From the NCBI GenBank assembly GCA_019096065.1, contig JAGUCH010000006.1, positions 5,476,001 to 5,540,000 on the forward strand: a DNA stretch of 64,000 nucleotides, written 5' to 3'. The position numbers and the translations under genes are program-made. Under the pieces are notes generated by a model. It worked only from the letters and a program-made list of their open reading frames with translations, ran no database searches and was not told where the DNA came from. This stretch comes from Paracyclopina nana. Lineage: Eukaryota > Arthropoda > Copepoda > Cyclopoida > Cyclopettidae. Position 1 is the stretch's first letter; every line of letters starts with the position of its first letter. Shown here piece after piece: positions 8,674 to 39,093 of this stretch.

Positions 8674-9905
8674 GACATCCCTAATAAGTCTGCAAGAAAA
8701 AGTTGCTAAGCCAATGAATTCACATTCAAAGTATTCAGGTTGTATTAATACTTAGACATCCAAAATGAGCCCACCAGGAAAAGTTGCTAGCCAATGACTA
8801 GGGGTCATTCACAGACAAAACTCACTAGTTCTCCCTAAGCATTGCTCCTAAAGAAAACAATTCACTTTTAAAGTATTTAGTTTGTATAAAGGACGCATAC
8901 TTAGACATCCCTAATGAGCCCGCCAGGAAAAGTTGCTAGCCAATGACTAGGGGTCATTCACAGACGAAACTCACTAGTTCTCGCTAAGCATAGCTCCTAA
9001 AGAAAACAATTCACATTTAAAGTATTTAGTTTGTATAAAGGACGCGTACTTAGACATCCCTAATGAGCCCGCCAGGAAAAGTTGCTAGCCAATGACTAGG
9101 GGTCATTCACAGACAAAACTCACTAGTTCTCCCTAAGCATAGCTCCTAAGAAAAACAGTTCACATTTAAAGTATTTAGTTTGTATAAAGGACGCGTACTT
9201 AGACATCCCTAATGAGCCCGCCAGGAAAAGTTGCTAGCCAATGACTAGGGGTCATTCACAGACAAAACTCACTAGTTCTCGCTAAGCATAGCTCCTAAAG
9301 AAAACAATTCACATTTAAAGTATTCAGGTCGTATAAGGACGCGTACTTAGACATCCCTAATGAGCCCGCCAGGAAAAGTTGCTAGCCAATGACTAGGGGT
9401 CATTCACAGACAAAACTCACTAGTTCTCCCTAAGCATTGCTCCTAAAGAAAACAATTCACATTTAAAGTATTTAGTTTGTATAAAGGACGCGTACTTAGA
9501 CATCCCTAATGAGCCCGCCACGAAAAGTTGCTAGCCAACGACTAGGGGTCATTCACAGACAAAACTCACTAGTTCTCCCTAAGCATAGCTCCTAAAGAAA
9601 ACAATTCACATTTAAAGTATTCAGGTCGTATAAGGACGCGTACTTAGACATCCCTAATGAGCCCGCCAGGAAAAGTTGCTAGCCAATGACTAGGGGTCAT
9701 TCACAGACAAAACTCACTAGTTCTCCCTAAGCATTGCTCCTAAAGAAAACAATTCACATTTAAAGTATTCAGGTCGTATAAAGGATGCGTACTTAGACAT
9801 CCCTAATGAGCCCGCCAAGAAAAGTTGCTAGCCAATGACTAGGGGTCATTCACAGATGAAACTCACTAGTTCTCAATAGCAATTCATATTTAAAGTAGTA
9901 AGTTT
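8674..9905. repeat. 148-149-bp satellite array
   Basis: The anchor GACATCCCTAATGAGCC (or a close variant) starts at 8674, 8755, 8904, 9053, 9202, 9350, 9499, 9647 and 9796. The last seven spacings are therefore 149, 149, 148, 149, 148 and 149 bp after the 8755-8904 step of 149. Copies are over 90% alike, except for the shortened first unit and the decayed last one. Units alternate between two variants at one site (TATTTAGTTTGTATAAAGG versus TATTCAGGTCGTATAAGG), so part of the array may have grown by dimers. No coding function is seen. Confidence 0.9.
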
Positions 9906-9934
9906 AAATAAAGGAGCCATACTTAGCCTGCAAA

Positions 9935-11762
9935 ATGCTGCCTCTGTGATGCGGCCTCCATTATGTAGTCTCCAAGATCTCATGATCACAATTTGAGTTT
10001 GCATGATGTGGCCTGAGTGATGCGGCCTGCTTGATGCGATCTGTGTGATGCGGCCTGCGTGATGTGGCCTGTGTGATGCGGCCTGTGTGATGCGGCCTTC
10101 GTGATGCGGCCTTCATGATGCGGCCTTCGTGATGCGGCCTTCGTGATGCGGCCTTCGTGATGCGGCCTGCGTGATGCGGATTCCATGATGCGGCCTCCAT
10201 TATTCGGCCTGCGTGATTTTGAGACCAAGGTAAAACTTCAAAAAAAGTGGGAAAATGTTTGTTTTGAGTTTGTGTGATGCGGCCTGCGTGATGCGGCCTG
10301 CGTGATGCGGCCTGCGTGATGGGGCCTTCGTGATGCGGCCTTCGTGATGCGGCCTTCATGATGCGGCCTCCGTGATCCGGCCTGCGTGATACGGTCTCGG
10401 TTGATGCGGCCTCGGTTGATGCGGCCTCGGTTGATGCGGCCTCTGTTATACGGCCTGCGTGATTTTGAGACCAAGGCAAAACTCATAATGCAGCTGCGTG
10501 TTGCGGCCAGCGTGATGTTGCCTGTGTGATTCGGCCTGCCTGATGCCACCTGCGTGATGAGGCCTTCGTGATGCAGCCTTCGTGATGCGGCCTTTGTGAT
10601 GTTGCCTCCATGATGCGGCCCTGCGTGATGCGGCCTCGGTTGATGCGGCCTCCATGATGCGGCCTCCGTTATTCAGCCTGCATGATTTTGAGACCAAGGC
10701 AAAACTTTGAAAAAGCAGGAAAAAAGTATGGTAAAAAAAATGTCACTTTTTGAGTTTGCGTGATGCGGCCTGCGTGATGGAGCCTCCGTGATGCGGCCTC
10801 CGTGATGCGGCCTCCGTGATGTGGCCTCCGTGATGCGGTCTCAGTGATGGTGCCTCCATGATGCGGCCTGCATGATGCGGCCTGCCTGATGCGACCTCCG
10901 TGATCCGGCCTGCGTGATGCGGCCTCGGTTGATGCGGCCACGGTTGATGCAGCCTCTGTTATACGGCCTGCGTGATTTTGAGACCAAGGCAAAACTCGTA
11001 ATGCCGTCTGCGTGTTGCGGCCAGCGTGATGTTGCCTGTGTGATTCGGCCTGCCTGATGCCACCTGCGTGATGAGGCCTTCGTGATGCAGCCTTCGTGAT
11101 GCGGCCTTTGTGATGTTGCCTCCATGATGCGGCCTGTGTGATGCGGCCTCGGTTGATGCGGCCTCCATGATGCGGCCTCCGTTTTTCGGCCTGCATGATT
11201 TTGAGACCAAGGCAAAACTTTGAAAAAGCAGGAAAAAAGTATGGTAAAAAAATGTCACTTTTTGAGTTTGCGTGATGCGGCCTGCGTGATGCAGCCTCCG
11301 TGATGCGGCCTCCGTGACGCGGCCTCCATGATGCGGCCTCCGTGATGCGGCCTCCGTGATGCGGTCTCCGTGATGAGGCCAGCGTGATGTTGCCTGCGTG
11401 ATTCGGCCTGCCTGATGCGACCTCCGTGATCCGGCCTGCGTGATGCGGCCTCCATCATGCGGCCTCTGTTATACGGCCTGCGTGATTTTGAGACCAAGGC
11501 AAAACTTTGAAAAAAGCAGGAAAAAAGTATGGTAAAAAAAATGTCACTTTTTGAGTTTGCGTGATGCGGCCTGCGTGATGCGGCCTCCGTGTTGCGACCT
11601 CCGTTATGCGGCCTCCGTGATGAGGTCTCCGTGATGCGACCTGTGTGATGCGACCTGCGTGATGCGACCTGCGTGATGCGACCTGCGTGATGCGGCCTGC
11701 GTGATGCGGCCTCTGTTTATGCGACCTCCGTGAAAACGGCCTCTTTGATGCGGCCTGCGTGA
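9935..11762. repeat. 14-bp minisatellite with higher-order structure
   Basis: The array is built from the unit TGATGCGGCCTGCG and variants (TTCG, TCCG or TCGG in the last four bases), measured at exactly 14 bp between neighbours around 10,275. A unique-like spacer beginning GATTTTGAGACCAAGG interrupts it at about 10,210, 10,460, 10,683, 10,975, 11,203, 11,485 and 11,758. Longer versions of the spacer continue through an A-rich stretch to TTTTTGAGTTTGCGTGATGC. Blocks around 10,490-10,760 and 11,000-11,260 are near-identical, showing a higher-order unit of about 510 bp. Since 14 is not a multiple of 3, all three minus frames stay open and yield overlapping RRPHHAGRITQAAS-type frames of up to 175 codons. 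I treat these as artefacts. Confidence 0.9.
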
Positions 11763-11778
11763 TTTTGAGAAAAGTAGG

Positions 11779-11952
11779 CGAGGTTGCCGTCAGTGACGAG
11801 GTCGCCATCGGAAGCGAGGTCGCCGTCGGAGACGAGGTCGCCGGCGGAGCCGAGGTCGCCATCGGAGACGAAGTTGCTGTCGGAGACAAGGAGGCCGTCG
11901 GAGATGAGGTCGTCGTCGGAGTTGAGGTCGCTGTCGGAGGTGTTGTCGCCGG
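11779..11952. repeat. 18-bp minisatellite
   Basis: About nine units of an 18-bp repeat near GAGGTCGCCGTCGGAGAC directly follow the 14-bp array. The period is a multiple of three and the unit lacks stops on either strand, so frames on both strands read as six-residue repeats (EVAVGD on plus, a Ser/Asp-rich repeat on minus). I see no support for translation. Confidence 0.8.
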
Positions 11953-30819: not shown

Positions 30820-31543
30820 GGGTATACTGGTTAAAGGCTAATCGGCAAAAGGCTATTTGGTGTAAGGCTAATTGGTTAAAGGCCAATTGGTAAAAGGCCA
30901 ATTGGGCAAAGGCTACATAGGTAGAAGGCTATGTTTAAAAGGCCAATAGCAGATGTTTTTGAGTGAAAATGTTTGATTGGTTCACAAGTGACATATCATT
31001 ATCTTTTAGTTTTCCTTCTTAATTCTTAGTTTCATTATTTTTGTGACAAAAATTGGTTTTTTGTGCTTAGCTTAGGAATTCCTAAAAAGACTTGGATCTG
31101 TACAAAGGAACATTTTACAAACAAGACTTACTTGTCTTGACTTGATTGACCAAGCTGATTTAGCTTGTTGAGAATAAGCAAGACTTGATTGCCTTTCTCA
31201 TGTTGCCAGAAGAAGCTAAGCTAAGGTAAAAAAGCTAAGCAAACCCGTAACATTTAAAGCAAAGCATTTTGCTTTTTTCAAATGTTGAGGAAAATTAGGC
31301 AATGAAAATCAGTTATTTCGGTCAACATTTATAAGATACAGCTGAATTTCATTGCTGGAACTTCGTTGATCAAAATAGATGTCATTAAATGATTTGTACT
31401 CTTGTAATGTTATCAATTTAGCCTTTTTTTGTAGCCTTTCACCAATCTAGCCTTTGGCCAATTGTCCTTTCACCATTTTGCCTTTTATCAATTAGCCTTG
31501 CACCAAATTGCCTTTTACCGATTAGCCTTTAACCAGTAGAGCC
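30820..31543. mobile_element. 724-bp foldback MITE with tandem-repeat TIRs
   Basis: The left arm (about 30,820-30,950) is a run of 15-16-bp units around TTGGTAAAAGGCTAA. The right arm (about 31,425-31,543) is the same array reverse-complemented (TTAGCCTTTTACC-type units). The outer ends read GGGTATACTGGTTAAAGGC and, reversed, GGCTCTACTGGTTAAAGGC. CAAAATAG flanks both ends (30,812-30,819 and 31,544-31,551), a perfect 8-bp target-site duplication of hAT length. The interior is non-coding and contains a diverged piece of the CAAACGCTCAACATTT hairpin family near 31,218-31,300. Confidence 0.8.
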
Positions 31544-32260: not shown

Positions 32261-32375
32261 GGCTTACTGGCAGTGGCCAGATAACCAGCGCACAGAAATC
32301 CCGAATCACACAATGCACACACCAGCCTCATTAACCATAGAAACACACACGAATCCCAAAATCACATGATGCACA

Positions 32376-33651
32376 CAACCTCACTCACCTCACTCTCCTC
32401 ACAATCCTCAATCACCTCACAATCCTCATCAACCTCACAATCCTCATCAACCTCACTCACCTCACCCACCTCACTCGCCTCATCAACCTCACTCACCTCA
32501 CCCGCCTCATCAACCTCACTCACCTCACCCACCTCACTCGCCTCATCAACCTCACTCACCTCACCCACCTCATCAACCTCACTCACCTCACCCACCTCAC
32601 TCACCTCACTCGCCTCATCAACCTCACTCACCTCACTCGCCTCATCAACCTCACTCACCTCACTCGCCTCATCAACCTCACTCACCTCACAATCCTCATC
32701 AACCTCACTCACCTCACTCGCCTCATCAACCTCACTCACCTCACTCGCCTCATCAACCTCACTCACCTCACTCGCCTCATTAACCTCACTCACCTCACTC
32801 GCCTCATTAACCTCACTCACCTCACTCGCCTCATCAACCTCACTCACCTCACAATCCTCATCAACCTCACTCACCTCATCAACCTCACTCACCTCACTGG
32901 CCTCATCAACCTCACAATCCTCATCAACCTCACTCACCTCATCAACCTCACTCACCTCACTCGCCTCATCAACCTCACTCACCTCACTCGCCTCATCAAC
33001 CTCACTCACCTCACTCGCCTCATTAACCTCACTCGCCTCACTCGCCTCATCAACCTCACTCACCTCACCCACCTCATCAACCTCACTCACCTCACCCACC
33101 TCACTCACCTCACTCGCCTCATCAACCTCACTCACCTCACTCGCCTCATCAACCTCACTCACCTCACTCGCCTCATCAACCTCACTCACCTCACAATCCT
33201 CATCAACCTCACTCACCTCACTCGCCTCATTAACCTCACTCACCTCACTCGCCTCATCAACCTCACTCACCTCACAATCCTCATCAACCTCACTCACCTC
33301 ATCAACCTCACTCACCTCACTCGCCTCATCAACCTCACTCGCCTCATCAACCTCACTCACCTCACAATCCTCATCAACCTCACTCACCTCACTCGCCTCA
33401 TTAACCTCACTCACCTCACTCGCCTCATCAACCTCACTCACCTCACAATCCTCATCAACCTCACTCACCTCACTCGCCTCATTAACCTCACTCACCTCAC
33501 TCGCCTCATCAACCTCACTCACCTCACAATCCTCATCAACCTCACTCACCTCATCAACCTCACTCACCTCACTCGCCTCATCAACCTCACTCACCTCACA
33601 ATCCTCATCAACCTCACTCGCCTCATCAACCTCACTCACCTCACTCGCCTT
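32376..33651. repeat. left-arm 9-bp-register minisatellite
   Basis: Read on the minus strand, the array is a mosaic of 9-mers, mainly GAGGTGAGT, GAGGTTGAT, GAGGCGAGT and GAGGATTGT. They commonly combine into 27-bp units encoding EVSEVDEAS or EVSEVDEDC and 18-bp units encoding EVDEAS. Because every unit is a multiple of 3 and lacks stops, there is a 425-codon frame on minus and a 466-codon Ser/Thr/Leu frame on plus. I regard both as repeat artefacts. Nearly pure repeats over 1.28 kb imply recent expansion or homogenisation. Confidence 0.93.
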
Positions 33652-33998
33652 GTATTACATAACCCAGTACTTAAAACTCGGTAATGATACCAAAATTATA
33701 AGTAGCTCAAGTAAAAGCAGATATTTTTTTCCTTTTTATCCTGAATTTTCTTCCGCTACTTCTTAGTAAATCGTCCCATGTAAAAAGTACAAAAGGCTGC
33801 TGTTTCAAACTCGTATTCAAAGCCAAAATTCGAAAAATTCTCCGATTTTGGATGTATTTATAGTTTTGGAAACTAGAGACAAAACTATACACTTTTTATT
33901 CCTGAGTCATTCAAGCAACTCAGCTATAAGTCTCCGTAATCTCAGCTGACAGGCTGCTATTTAGCATTAAACTTTGGCGCGCTATATCTCGAAGATAA

Positions 33999-34152
33999 TA
34001 GCCCGGTTCCAACAAGGAAAATCAGCTAAGTCAGGAGACGTAACTTGACTTATTAGCATAGTCAGGTAACAGCTAGCTCGCGCACTCAGCTCAACCTGAC
34101 TTAACTGGTTTACCGTACTATACTATACTGATATCCCGTGTTGGAACCGGGC
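33999..34152. mobile_element. 150-bp MITE nested in the core
   Basis: The termini GCCCGGTTCCAACA (34,001 on) and TGTTGGAACCGGGC (to 34,150) are perfect inverted repeats flanked by TA on both sides. It interrupts a module that reads through uninterrupted in the related copies near 36.5 and 37.7 kb. It is a typical small Tc1/mariner-type MITE by its TA duplication; no coding capacity. Confidence 0.75.
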
Positions 34153-34207
34153 TATTTACTGCTGAGCGCTCAGCGCTATCTCCGCTCATAGTTGTCCGAT
34201 TTTAATG

Positions 34208-34337
34208 CTCTGTTCATCTACAAACTCCTTAAGGAATCGGAACGCGAAATTCCTTTGCGCAAAGGAGTTCTCAGTACATAAACTAGCTGCGTAGAGTTGT
34301 CATTATGCATTCCTTAAGGAACGGTAGATGAACAGAG
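34208..34337. mobile_element. 130-bp inverted-repeat insertion nested in the core
   Basis: The ends are CTCTGTTCATCTAC and GTAGATGAACAGAG, continuing inward with ACTCCTTAAGGAAT and ATTCCTTAAGGAAC. The ends resemble those of the dispersed TGCCCTGTTCATGTA family (see 47,953). The target duplication is unclear. The related module copy near 36.57 kb has only about 30 unrelated bases at this place. Confidence 0.6.
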
Positions 34338-34409
34338 ACTCAGCAGTAACTACTTTTACTTCATAGCAAAATTGATATCTCCACTTTTACTTGCGCTAGT
34401 TCTTAACGA

Positions 34410-34806
34410 AAAGCTCTATGTACTACGTAGTACATAGCCCTGTAATCATCTTGGCCCTGTACTTAAAACTCGTTAAGCATGCGAAAATTCGAAAAATGCC
34501 CCGATTTTGGAACTTTTTACTGTTTTGGAAATGGGAGATCAAACTGAACACTTTTTGTTTCATAGTAAACAAGATAGCTCAGCTAGAAGTCTCCGTAAAG
34601 CTCAGCAGTTAGGCTGCTATTAAGCGGTAAACTTTGGCGCGTGATATCTCCGGTTCTAGACCAGATATCTTGCCCCAATTTGATTCTATGAAGTCAGGGC
34701 CATCAGCTCTACAAGGTCTATTAGTAGTCAAAGACCGCAGACCGACTTTAATTTGATCGGCGAAAATTTGACGCCAACCGTTTTTCGCGGAAATTTCCAC
34801 TTTAGA
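34410..34806. repeat. core module copy A (direct repeat)
   Basis: About 397 bp are nearly identical to 36,998-37,394 (only one clear substitution noticed, TATCTCC versus TATTTCC), at an offset of 2,588 bp. It starts with a perfect 22-bp palindrome, CTATGTACTAC followed by its reverse complement. The 64-codon frame at 34,418-34,612 and the minus frame at 34,609-34,800 recur unchanged in the second copy and are not supported as genes. The wider module recurs less perfectly at about 33.67 and 36.64 kb. Confidence 0.9.
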
Positions 34807-34986
34807 AAGCTATAAAGTCCTCAAATGCTTGAAAAAGTCAAAGAAAACAATAAGTGGAAGACTTAGCAGCAAGAATTGCCCCATTTCGAGCTGTTTTAAG
34901 CCCCCAAAACTCGAAAATTCGAGCTAAAATGGAAAAGTAAACAAAGTCTCTATATAGTAAACTTCGGCGCGCGATATCTCAGCAAC

Positions 34987-36424
34987 GCACATTACCCAAC
35001 CAGACATTTTACCAAGTTTTCTGAAAGTTATTGTAACGTGTTAGCACTCCTTCGTTTTACCCAGGTTGAGTTTATGTCGTTATGTAACAGTAACTTCCAT
35101 ACCACCTATGAAAAAAAAAGAGAAAAATCGAATGTGACACGGAAAATTTGTATTTTCGATTTTACTTAGGTGTCAAGGTAGTTAATGTTACATAACGACT
35201 TGAACTCAATGTCGATAAAACGCATAAGTTTCACTGAGGGTTTTTTTGCCGTATGAGGGCCCAGAATTTCTGGTTGGGTAGGGTCACTCCTAATAAAAAA
35301 GTCGCATCATTGAAAAGTACGTGAAAATGCATCGTAACTTCAAGAATGCCAAAAATTGGCATTACTTAGATAAATCCCATTCTAAATCATAGGAAAGTTA
35401 TTCTAAAGCTAGAAAAATGTAAAGAAATTAGGTTTTTAGGCATCCAATTGCCTAAATTGATCAAAAACACCCCAATTTTAATAGAAATAGCCACAAGTTT
35501 GGTTTGCAAAAACTCCTCCAAATCTCATAAGTATGTGGATATATGAACACAACAGGGGTACTAAATTATTCCAAGGTGCCCTACTGAAGTTTTTTGGAAA
35601 GCATCTTTGAGGAATGCTGAAGTCCAAGGGATCTATAGGCACCTATGATTTTTTTTAATTTTCTTGCAGCCTTTTGGCATAGAGTTTCATTGACAAAATC
35701 TGAGTTTGACTAAATAAAGTCTTTGAAGATAACATTTTAGTAGCCCAAAAACATCAAGGAAGTCAATTTTGAAGTATTAGCATCAATCTAGAGCCGAATT
35801 AGTGATGGCCTTTTTCGCACAATTGGGCTTTGCTTACGGAGGCTCTGGTAGTAATGATTTTTGCCGCAAGGAGGAGCTAATGACAGCCCAGCTAATAGCA
35901 GTGTAGGCTGAGCGGGCTGAAAATTGAATTTCGATCTGTTTCGGTTTGCACCTGCTCCGCTACTAGCCCCAATATAAAAAAATTGAACCTTCGATCAATT
36001 TTTAGAGTCAACAGATTTGGTATATTTCAACTAATTCACAAATATTTTAGTCTTCTAATTTTTTAAAAGTAAGATTTAATCCAGTTTTGTTGCCATTTCA
36101 TGGGCACATTGAGTAATAATTGTGTGCTTTGCAGGACAATTTGCCCAAGAAAAGCAAGCTTAATACACAGAGTTGCTTTCTGGAAAAGGCAGAAAATCTT
36201 TCGTTTCTTGACAAGAACGCCAAATATTTCGTTTTTAAAAGTCAAAAAGCCAAATGATAACGATTATGCGACGAACTAGTTGAAAGGACACTGAAAAAGT
36301 ATCGGAGGTTACTCCTAATGCTATCCTTTTTACCTTATTCGGAAAAATGTAACTACACCATGAGCAAAGCCCAATTTTCAATGAAAACTATGCGACTTTT
36401 TTGTTAGAAGTGACCCTTCTGTGC
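34987..36424. mobile_element. 1.44-kb TIR element nested in the core
   Basis: The intact module copy near 37,568 reads CTCAGCAACGGAG without interruption. Here CAGCAAC is followed by GCACATTA... and 1.4 kb later ...TTCTGTGC is followed by AACGGAG, so AAC is duplicated (34,984-34,986; 36,425-36,427). The ends are inverted: GGGTCACTCCTAATAAAAAA (35,281 on) against a matching reversed end finishing at about 36,417. The left TIR is split by a younger MITE. No transposase frame was recognised. Confidence 0.65.
34995..35278. mobile_element. 284-bp TA-flanked MITE
   Basis: The termini CCCAACCAGA and TCTGGTTGGG are flanked by TA on each side. A second internal inverted pair is TTATGTCGTTATGTAAC and GTTACATAACGACTTGA, so the element folds into a hairpin. 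It sits inside the left terminal repeat of the 34,987-36,424 element and is therefore younger. Confidence 0.75.
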
Positions 36425-36997
36425 AACGGAGAGTCTCAGCGGCTATGAATTCGTCTTGACATTCTCTATCACTTTTTTAAGTACTCAAAGTGTTTCAGCG
36501 CATTTTCGTTTACGAAGTTCTGTACTGCTGAGCGCTCAGCGCTATCTCCGCTTGTATTTATCCGATTTTAAAACTGTTTACATTTTTGGAATCCATAGAC
36601 TCAGCAAAAACTACTTTTACTAAATAGCAAAATTGATATCTCCACTTTTGCGCCCGCTACTTCTTAACGAAAAGCTCTATGTACTACGAAGTACATAGCC
36701 CTGTACTTAAAACTCGCATTTAATGCCAAAATTCGAAAAATGCCCCAATTTTGGAACTATTTACTGTTTTAGAAATGGGAGATCAAACTAAACACTTTTT
36801 GCTTCATAGTAAACAAGATATCTCAGCTCCTTGTCTCCGTAAAGCTCAGCAGTTAGGCTGCTATTAAGCGGTAAACTTTGGCGCGCGATATCTCCGGTTC
36901 TAGACCAGATATCTGGCCCAAATTTGAACCTATGAAGTCAGGGCAACCTCCTCTACAAGGTTTATCTACAAGCAGTCCAAGCCCGCATTTCAACTTT

Positions 36998-37394
36998 AAA
37001 GCTCTATGTACTACGTAGTACATAGCCCTGTAATCATCTTGGCCCTGTACTTAAAACTCGTTAAGCATGCGAAAATTCGAAAAATGCCCCGATTTTGGAA
37101 CTTTTTACTGTTTTGGAAATGGGAGATCAAACTGAACACTTTTTGTTTCATAGTAAACAAGATAGCTCAGCTAGAAGTCTCCGTAAAGCTCAGCAGTTAG
37201 GCTGCTATTAAGCGGTAAACTTTGGCGCGTGATATTTCCGGTTCTAGACCAGATATCTTGCCCCAATTTGATTCTATGAAGTCAGGGCCATCAGCTCTAC
37301 AAGGTCTATTAGTAGTCAAAGACCGCAGACCGACTTTAATTTGATCGGCGAAAATTTGACGCCAACCGTTTTTCGCGGAAATTTCCACTTTAGA
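36998..37394. repeat. core module copy B (direct repeat)
   Basis: The near-identical partner of 34,410-34,806; see that entry. Downstream it continues into the uninterrupted module end (CGATATCTCAGCAACGGAG) that was used to define the nested insertion at 34,987. Flanks diverge sharply after 37,394, which suggests a recent local duplication or gene conversion tract. Confidence 0.9.
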
Positions 37395-37859
37395 ATGCAA
37401 TAAAGTCTTCAAATTCATGAAAAAGGCCAAGAAAACAATAAGTGGAAGACTTGGCAGCAAGAATTGCCCCTTTTGCGTCACTTTTAGCCCCCAAAACAGC
37501 CCAAATTCGGGCTCAATTGATAAAGTAAAGAAAGACTGTATAGTAAACTTCGGGGAAGCGATATCTCAGCAACGGAGCGTCCCAGCTCACTACTTTTTGC
37601 GGCTATGAATTCGTCTTGACATTCTCGATAACTTTTATTTCTACTCAAAGTCTCTAAGCGCAATTTCATTTACGAAGTTCTGTACTGCTGAGCGCTCAGC
37701 GCTATCTCAGCTCATAGTTGTCATAGTTCCACTCTAGAAAACTGGAAGAACGTTTCCAGCTATTTTAGCCCAAAAAAGACAAAAAAATCGGGCTTTTACT
37801 TGCGCTACTTCAAATTTTGGCATCATTACCGAGTTTTAAGTACTGGGTTATGTAATACA

Positions 37860-38998
37860 AGGCGAGTGAGGTGAGTGAGGTTGATGAGGCGAGTGAGGTG
37901 AGTGAGGTTGATGAGGCGAGTGAGGTGAGTTAGGTTGATGTGGTGGGTGAGGTGAGTGAGGTTGATGAGGCGAGTGAGGTGAGTGAGGTTGATGAGGCGA
38001 GTGAGGTTGATGAGGCGAGTGAGGTGAGTGAGGTTGATGAGGATTGTGAGGTGAGTGAGGTGAGTGAGGTGAGTGAGGTGTGTGAGGTTGATGAGGTGAG
38101 TGAGGTGAGTGAGGTTGATGAGGCGGGTGAGGTGAGTGAGGTTGATGAGGATTGTGAGGTGAGTGAGGTTGATGAGGCGAGTGAGGTGAGTGAGGTTGAT
38201 GAGGATTGTGAGGTGAGTGAGGTTGATGAGGATTGTGAGGTGAGTGAGGTTGATGAGGTGAGTGAGGTGAGTGAGGTTGATGAGGATTGTTAGGTTGATG
38301 AGGCGAGTGAGGTGAGTGAGGTTGATGAGGCGAGTGAGGTGATTGAGGTTGATGAGGCGAGTGAGGTTGATGAGGCGAGTGAGGTGAGTGAGGTTGATGA
38401 GGATTGTGAGGTGAGTGAGGTGAGTGAGGTTGATGAGGTGAGTGAGGTGAGTGAGGTGAGTGAGGTTGATGAGGCGAGTGAGGTGAGTGAGGTTGATGAG
38501 GATTGTGAGGTGAGTGAGGTTGATGAGGCGAGTGAGGTGAGTGAGGTTGATGAGGCGAGTGAGGTGAGTGAGGTTGATGAGGCGAGTGAGGTGAGTGAGG
38601 TTGATGAGGCGAGTGAGGTGAGTGAGGTTGATGTGGTGGGTGAGGTGAGTGAGGTTGATGAGGATTGTGAGGTGAGTGAGGTTGATGAGGCGAGTGAGGT
38701 GAGTGAGGTTAATGAGGCGAGTGAGGTGAGTGAGGTTGATGAGGATTGTGAGGTGAGTGAGGTGGGTGAGGTGGGTGAGGTGAGTGAGGTTGATGAGGCG
38801 AGTGAGGTGAGTGAGGTTGATGAGGCGAGTGAGGTGAGTGAGGTTGATGAGGCGAGTGAGGAAGATGAGGTGGGTGATGATTCTGAGGTGGGTGAGGATT
38901 GTGAGGTGGTTGAGGATTATGAGGTGGGTGAGGTTGATGAGGTGAGTGAGGTTGATGAGGTGGGTGAGGATTGTGAGGTGTTTGAGGATTGTGAGGTG
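37860..38998. repeat. right-arm 9-bp-register minisatellite
   Basis: The same 9-mer vocabulary as the left arm, here on the plus strand (GAGGTGAGT, GAGGTTGAT, GAGGCGAGT, GAGGATTGT). The order of units differs from the left arm, so the two arrays have expanded separately or been reshuffled since they formed. Near 38,865-38,990 the units become degenerate. Frames at 37,940-38,293 and 38,312-39,022 (+) are repeat artefacts, broken once by GATTGTTAG at 38,285. Confidence 0.93.
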
Positions 38999-39093
38999 AT
39001 TTCTGTGTGTTCCTATGGCTGATGAGGCTGTAATGTGCTATGTGTGATTTCGGGATTTCTGTGCGCTGGTTATCTGGCCACTGCCGGCTTACT

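Follow-up and report, generated by a model that had tools for sequence, protein, structure and literature searches.

A 64,000-nt stretch of the genome of the copepod Paracyclopina nana (C6:5476001-5540000 in a 91.95-Mb assembly of 10 contigs, C1, C2 and so on; hereafter the window) contains a structure with long satellite arms in opposite orientation, which raises the question of whether it is a mobile element and, if so, of which kind. An earlier note on this DNA had described it as a foldback element with a perfect 8-bp duplication and had leaned towards the hAT superfamily. Our analysis indicates that this structure, named E1 here, is very probably a non-autonomous foldback DNA transposon, and one of a clan with at least three sister families in the genome. 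Pfam matches from the host (EcKL/DUF1679 and Srw-type GPCR) are of a nematode-like type.

E1 spans 32269-39085 (6,817 bp); the bounds given originally, 32261-39093, count both flanking octamers too. The two octamers (GGCTTACT) are identical at 8/8 positions, forming a perfect target-site duplication, and the outer 34 bases of the left end are identical to the reverse complement of the right end (Table 1). Inside the ends lie two 27-bp minisatellite arms in opposite orientation, 1,275 bp on the left and 1,110 bp on the right, in keeping with the more than 1.1 kb first claimed for them. The arms pair over approximately 1.13 kb with an ungapped complementarity of up to 84%, and their G+C content is 0.53, compared to 0.39 in the 4.2-kb core. 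The core is organised much as had been proposed, with direct modules of 300 nt and two nested insertions, one within the other (element X and a 284-bp palindromic element). Element X is absent from the homologous E1 module near 37570.

Further copies were sought in the host assembly in two ways. A search with the terminal 88 bases of E1 returned at least 50 matches (40 of 42 candidates scored). The 22-base end pattern GGCAGTGGCCAGATAACCAGCG, with up to three mismatches allowed, was found at 119 genomic places (60 forward and 59 reverse) and the reversed pattern, used as a control, at none, so the ends of E1 are not due to chance. Positions were listed for 100 of these 119 places, and many of the 100 form facing pairs; a second list of ends gave positions for 100 of 103. 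Both ends were inspected in 17 pairs (E1-E4, E6-E14, B1-B3 and a pair nested in E3), while E5 was inspected at one end and eight further places were taken as single ends. Perfect 8-bp target duplications flank 15 of the 17 pairs; B3 has a 7/8 match and E12 has no duplication. All 16 duplications inspected are 8 bp long. In the 15 pairs that were tabulated (14 perfect and B3, with E12 and the pair nested in E3 outside the table), the octamers match directly outside a terminal GG. The GG therefore belongs to the element, whose end is GGCAGTGGCC and not CAGTGGCC. No target preference was apparent over 15 sites, and a target motif or palindromic target was rejected because 206 of 2000 shuffles reached the observed palindromy.

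The copies fall into three families with common outer ends and differing arm satellites. Family A has the ends GGCAGTGGCCAGATAACC and 27-bp arms, with a divergent member, E14, that has 9-bp arms. Family B has the ends GGCAGTGGCCAGATATCC and 110/140-bp arms, and family C, of which one copy was inspected, has GGCAGTGGCCAGGTGTCC at one end, a slightly different sequence at the other and 103-bp arms. Large pairs of family-B ends lie at C3:4075315-4128744, C3:1636274-1666723 and C1:11039710-11052974. In the 10 family-A copies measured, the minisatellite arms are in opposite orientation and 0.8-5.1 kb long, giving the long inverted ends made of tandem subrepeats that characterise foldback elements. 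Family-A elements are 4.6-30 kb in length, nested insertions included, although much shorter ones, 0.7 and 1.2 kb long, occur as well.

The arms seem to travel with the element rather than being remade at each site, because left and right arm identity is kept among copies of a subfamily. Among E2, E3 and E4, the proportion of shared 36-mers is 0.61-0.70 between left arms and 0.74-0.81 between right arms, compared to 0.45-0.52 between the left and right arms of the same copy. For E6 and E7 the values are 0.47 and 0.63 between copies versus 0.31 and 0.34 between left and right. The pattern is less clean in E8-E11, where it emerges only with E9 and E11 reversed and has exceptions in E10 (0.52 between left and right) and between the left arm of E8 and the right arm of E11 (0.38). 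Core identity is 99.3% between E2 and E3 (2,175 bp), 98.1% between E2 and E4 (3,094 bp) and 98.6% between E8 and E11 (1,320 bp), so some of the movement was recent. E1 is a more distant copy, with a core 82.7-83.5% identical to those of E2-E4 over 660 bp.

Many copies have satellite-rich cores. In a comparison that left out E4 and E9, a 160-bp unit of two family-B copies matched E6, E7, E8, E10, E11 and the family-C array at 76-94%, and a 169-bp unit of three family-B copies matched E8, E10 and E11 at 73-77%. Neither unit had a match in the E1 or E2 cores at E 1e-10, and core satellites were rejected as a defining trait, being common in the clan and not general. A search with the 169-bp satellite gave at least 275 matches (39 of 154 candidates scored), with arrays at many other places that are not between listed ends (e.g., C1:142-148 kb and C4:5945-5949 kb). 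The idea that the arm unit derives from the end sequence was also rejected, as 137 of 500 shuffles for family A and 371 of 500 for family B attained the alignment score of end against arm unit (90 bases, same strand). The lowest of 12 such tests, with the outer 34 bases of family C (18 of 500 shuffles), is unconvincing after 12 tests.

Evidence for mobility comes from empty sites. For 14 elements, 90 + 90 flanking bases were joined around one octamer and searched genome-wide, yielding at least 42 matches (40 of 673 candidates scored). For E2, the flanks are found joined, with one octamer and no element, at eight or more places at 180/180 and at no fewer than four more at 94-99%. Those of E7 run uninterrupted at a minimum of 14 places (92-99%) and those of E14 are spanned at 15 or more (91-100%). 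The insertions of E2, E7 and E14 are thus precise and lie within other repeats. Nested in E3 is a family-C element flanked by a perfect duplication, CTTTGGCG; the core of E2 represents the empty site of this nested element. For the remaining 11 junctions, including that of E1, there was no spanning match among the matches listed, where E13 had one 85% match covering part of its left flank; given the number of candidates scored, this absence carries no weight. The empty sites that the earlier note had called for were therefore found for other members of the clan and not for E1. Occurrence at several sites, target duplications and these empty sites together mark the clan as mobile foldback elements.

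We propose that the shared outer end, GGCAGTGGCCAG...CCAGCG, is the part required for movement. A transposase made elsewhere would cut at the outer ends, acting in trans, and the element would be pasted into a staggered 8-bp cut, giving rise to the octamer duplication. The minisatellite arms and the core would then be passengers that move as a unit and may change in copy number.

The elements are probably non-autonomous, since no transposase domain was detected when 20 reading frames, all of them outside family B, were scanned against Pfam. The matches obtained in these frames belong to nested long terminal repeat (LTR) retrotransposons (E3 and E9) and, in sequence flanking E10, to a gene for 3-hydroxyanthranilic acid dioxygenase (3-HAO). 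A retroelement frame also gave two sub-threshold matches (P35 and cobalamin adenosyltransferase), which were taken as chance. Neither the one E1 core frame scanned (37197-37565, 122 amino acids) nor the four frames scanned from E14 matched a Pfam family. The gene-rich interiors of E3, E5 and E9 were considered as autonomous copies and rejected, as they are nested LTR retrotransposons. The E3 interior encodes a reverse transcriptase and RNase H, and its integrase domains score marginally below the cut-offs; that of E9 encodes a Pao peptidase, reverse transcriptase and integrase, while E5 was assigned by the near-identity of its frames to those of E3. The terminal repeats of these retrotransposons (L040-L042, L046-L047 and L051-L052) show no differences over 238, 237 and 173 bp, and the insertions are therefore very young.

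The source of the transposase can be ranked by superfamily, and we infer the order Mutator-like elements (MULEs), then Merlin or an unrecognised type, then P and hAT. MULEs and Merlin, neither of which the earlier note took into account, fit the combination of GG ends and 8-bp duplications better than hAT or P. A MULE-type transposase is the leading candidate, although its chance appears to be slightly under even. It is ranked first because, among the described elements consulted, those that combine a short outer motif and tandem subterminal repeats with 8-9-bp duplications, and for which the transposase is known, belong to the MULEs (Tm1, Muta1 and Muta5), and because MULE transposases occur in this genome, at five loci (C6:2032167, C2:6668156, C5:6359976, C1:17718506 and C7:3428256). 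MULE target duplications are 8-11 bp long and mostly 9, and the constant 8 bp seen here lies at the edge of that range.

Several observations weigh against this account. We found no autonomous copy, as no listed end pair encloses any of the five MULE matches or of the 11 matches to the P RNase-H domain. The MULE match that comes closest (C1:17718506) lies beyond a single partial end at a distance of 4.4 kb, a proximity estimated to be not beyond chance. The duplications are always 8 bp, versus 8 or 9 in Muta1 and mostly 9 in Tm1. The frames scanned for a transposase are a part of those listed and none is from family B. The empty site of E1 itself is missing from the candidates scored, and no excision event was observed.

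Among the alternatives, a Merlin (IS1595-like) non-autonomous element would combine GG ends with an 8-bp duplication, as seen here: in the part of the Merlin literature consulted, the ends begin with 5'-GG and duplications are 8 or 9 bp (PMC8101967). However, no IS1595-type transposase was found in the genome, which has no match to PF12762, or to NF033547 even at E 10, whereas both models matched in one control genome. We consider a Merlin origin unlikely, and give about the same modest weight to a transposase of an unrecognised type. The KDZ transposase (Zisupton and kin) had no match in the genome either, with the control silent too.

An origin as a Galileo-like foldback of the P superfamily is improbable. 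The published excerpt on these elements gives 8-bp duplications for P and long composite ends for Galileo (PMC4168063). The duplication length agrees with the 7 or 8 bp of this group, and three of the 11 P RNase-H matches are strong, but no P match lies within a listed end pair and the sites show no target motif, in contrast to the GTANTAC preference of Galileo. The P copy at C1:7.81 Mb (L071), of which 4.3 kb were inspected, has THAP-like and transposase-like frames by eye, split over several frames, but lacks both 27-bp arms and clear inverted ends; of three loose GGCAGTGGCC matches there (two edits allowed), two are facing and lie within its transposase-like frames. A 29/63-bp tandem array is located to the left of this copy. 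Further P loci are at C5:1232660 and C3:7186108.

The hAT-derived element favoured in the earlier note is less probable still. The 8-bp duplication and a CAGTGG two bases inside the element end would suit it, but hAT ends usually begin (C/T)A and the ends here begin with GG, with the octamers matching directly outside. The hAT dimerisation domain also had no match in the genome, a weak negative since the control was silent too. The autonomous P or hAT partner with the same terminal inverted repeat, which the note had suggested looking for, was thus not recovered within the listed end pairs or, for hAT, by this domain. Finally, although long arrays are hard to assemble, an assembly artefact or a plain inverted satellite duplication can hardly account for the same design with precise octamers at many sites, precise empty sites for three copies, and left and right arm identity kept among copies on different contigs.

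In the TU elements of sea urchins, the inverted arms are long and built from 15-bp tandem repeats, and the duplications are 8 bp. The other systems are compared here on the basis of portions of their published descriptions. Like the clan of E1, Tm1 of the nematode Meloidogyne (Mutator/Foldback) has tandem-repeat ends, is mostly non-autonomous, shows nested insertion and has no clear target preference (PMC3169594). Its duplications are mostly 9 bp, with 8-10 seen, and one of its copies is known to encode a Phantom-like MULE transposase; unlike the clan, its ends are CGGTTAA and CCTACCC, its units are 13-15 bp, and one described element is 1,080 bp, compared to 4.6-30 kb in family A (PMC3169594). 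The MULEs Muta1 and Muta5 of Aedes aegypti, for which a transposase is present, carry a subterminal tandem repeat next to an outer motif of 10 or 8 bp. They show duplications of 8-9 bp (8 or 9 and without clear preference in Muta1) and have many derivatives that are non-autonomous and differ in repeat number, but their ends measure only 145-151 bp (PMC5225508). Tetris of Drosophila virilis is likewise a non-autonomous foldback with tandem-repeat arms, a link to satellite DNA and an autonomous partner that was not found, and the size of its duplications led its authors to suggest Mutator; it differs in its arm unit of approximately 220 bp, an external flanking domain of up to 866 bp, 8-10-bp duplications and three complete copies (PMC4079207). 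Galileo of Drosophila has similar foldback-like long ends, with tandem repeats in some, and differs in its 7-bp, rarely 8-bp, duplications, its target preference and its known P transposase (PMC4168063).

The earlier note had raised the possibility of an undescribed non-autonomous family. Other copies exist and the frames scanned have no transposase domain, but the general kind is already known, and what is new is the variety, a clan of long-armed foldbacks with 8-bp duplications. Among the open-licence papers listed in our searches, these families and ends are described in no title or opening of an abstract, which is not proof that they are unpublished. A wider interpretation seems to us possible, if rather doubtful: the terminal sequence that is kept would amount to no more than about 22 bp, with the arm satellites (27-bp, 110/140-bp and 103-bp) exchanged wholesale and 160- and 169-bp satellites in many cores, and the clan would be a vehicle spreading satellite DNA over the chromosomes, moved by a superfamily not yet linked to foldbacks (e.g., Merlin) or not yet described. 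As a set of complete long-armed foldbacks, some with precise empty sites, the clan lets one ask how arms of satellite DNA originate, lengthen and are exchanged between constant ends, and it bears on whether foldbacks seed dispersed satellite arrays, a question raised by Tetris.

Table 1. Components of E1, in positions of the window.
Feature	Position	Strand
Left target-site duplication, 8 bp, GGCTTACT	32261..32268	
Left terminal inverted repeat, 34 bp; likeness to other copies extends to ~32356	32269..32302	+
Left arm, 27-bp minisatellite, 48.6 copies	32376..33650	+
E1 core, 4.2 kb	33651..37859	
Innermost inverted repeat, left; 87% complementary to 37773-37856	33654..33737	+
Core module copy 1	34410..34709	+
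Left 5-bp duplication of nested element X, CAACG	34983..34987	
Nested element X, 1,436 bp, ends CACA...TGTG; right CAACG at 36424-36428	34988..36423	
284-bp palindromic element within end of X; TA on either side	34995..35278	
Core module copy 2, 81%	36654..36953	+
Core module copy 3, 100% to copy 1	36998..37297	+
Innermost inverted repeat, right	37773..37856	-
Right arm, 27-bp minisatellite, 41.4 copies, opposite orientation	37860..38969	-
Right terminal inverted repeat	39052..39085	-
Right target-site duplication, 8 bp, GGCTTACT	39086..39093	

Two copies lie close to coding or coding-like sequence. In the frame matching 3-HAO (L053:7427-7762), the next in-frame ATG follows the end of E10 by approximately 100 bp, and E8 is located between two minus-strand open frames that look coding by eye (L050:3-452 and L050:9347-9679), and insertions of this kind may therefore have effects on genes. 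Rearrangements, too, are likely to arise from long inverted repeats.

Three single family-A ends (L059, L060 and L061; C8 and C2) have a common outer flank, GCTTACCGAGTTT...ACGAAAAGT, and are therefore located inside a larger repeated unit. A relative of element X, a stretch of 338 bp that is 92% alike, is present within the left flank of E14 on C5. To the left of E1, at 30826-31540, the window contains a smaller second foldback-like element with the ends CTGGTTAAAGGCTAATCGG, apparently with TA on each side, whose arms of approximately 107 bp consist of degenerate 15-bp repeats in opposite orientation. Further arrays are found at 8717-11939, where a 149-bp unit is tandemly repeated 7.6 times and a 14-bp unit 124 times, and a third array has an 18-bp unit.

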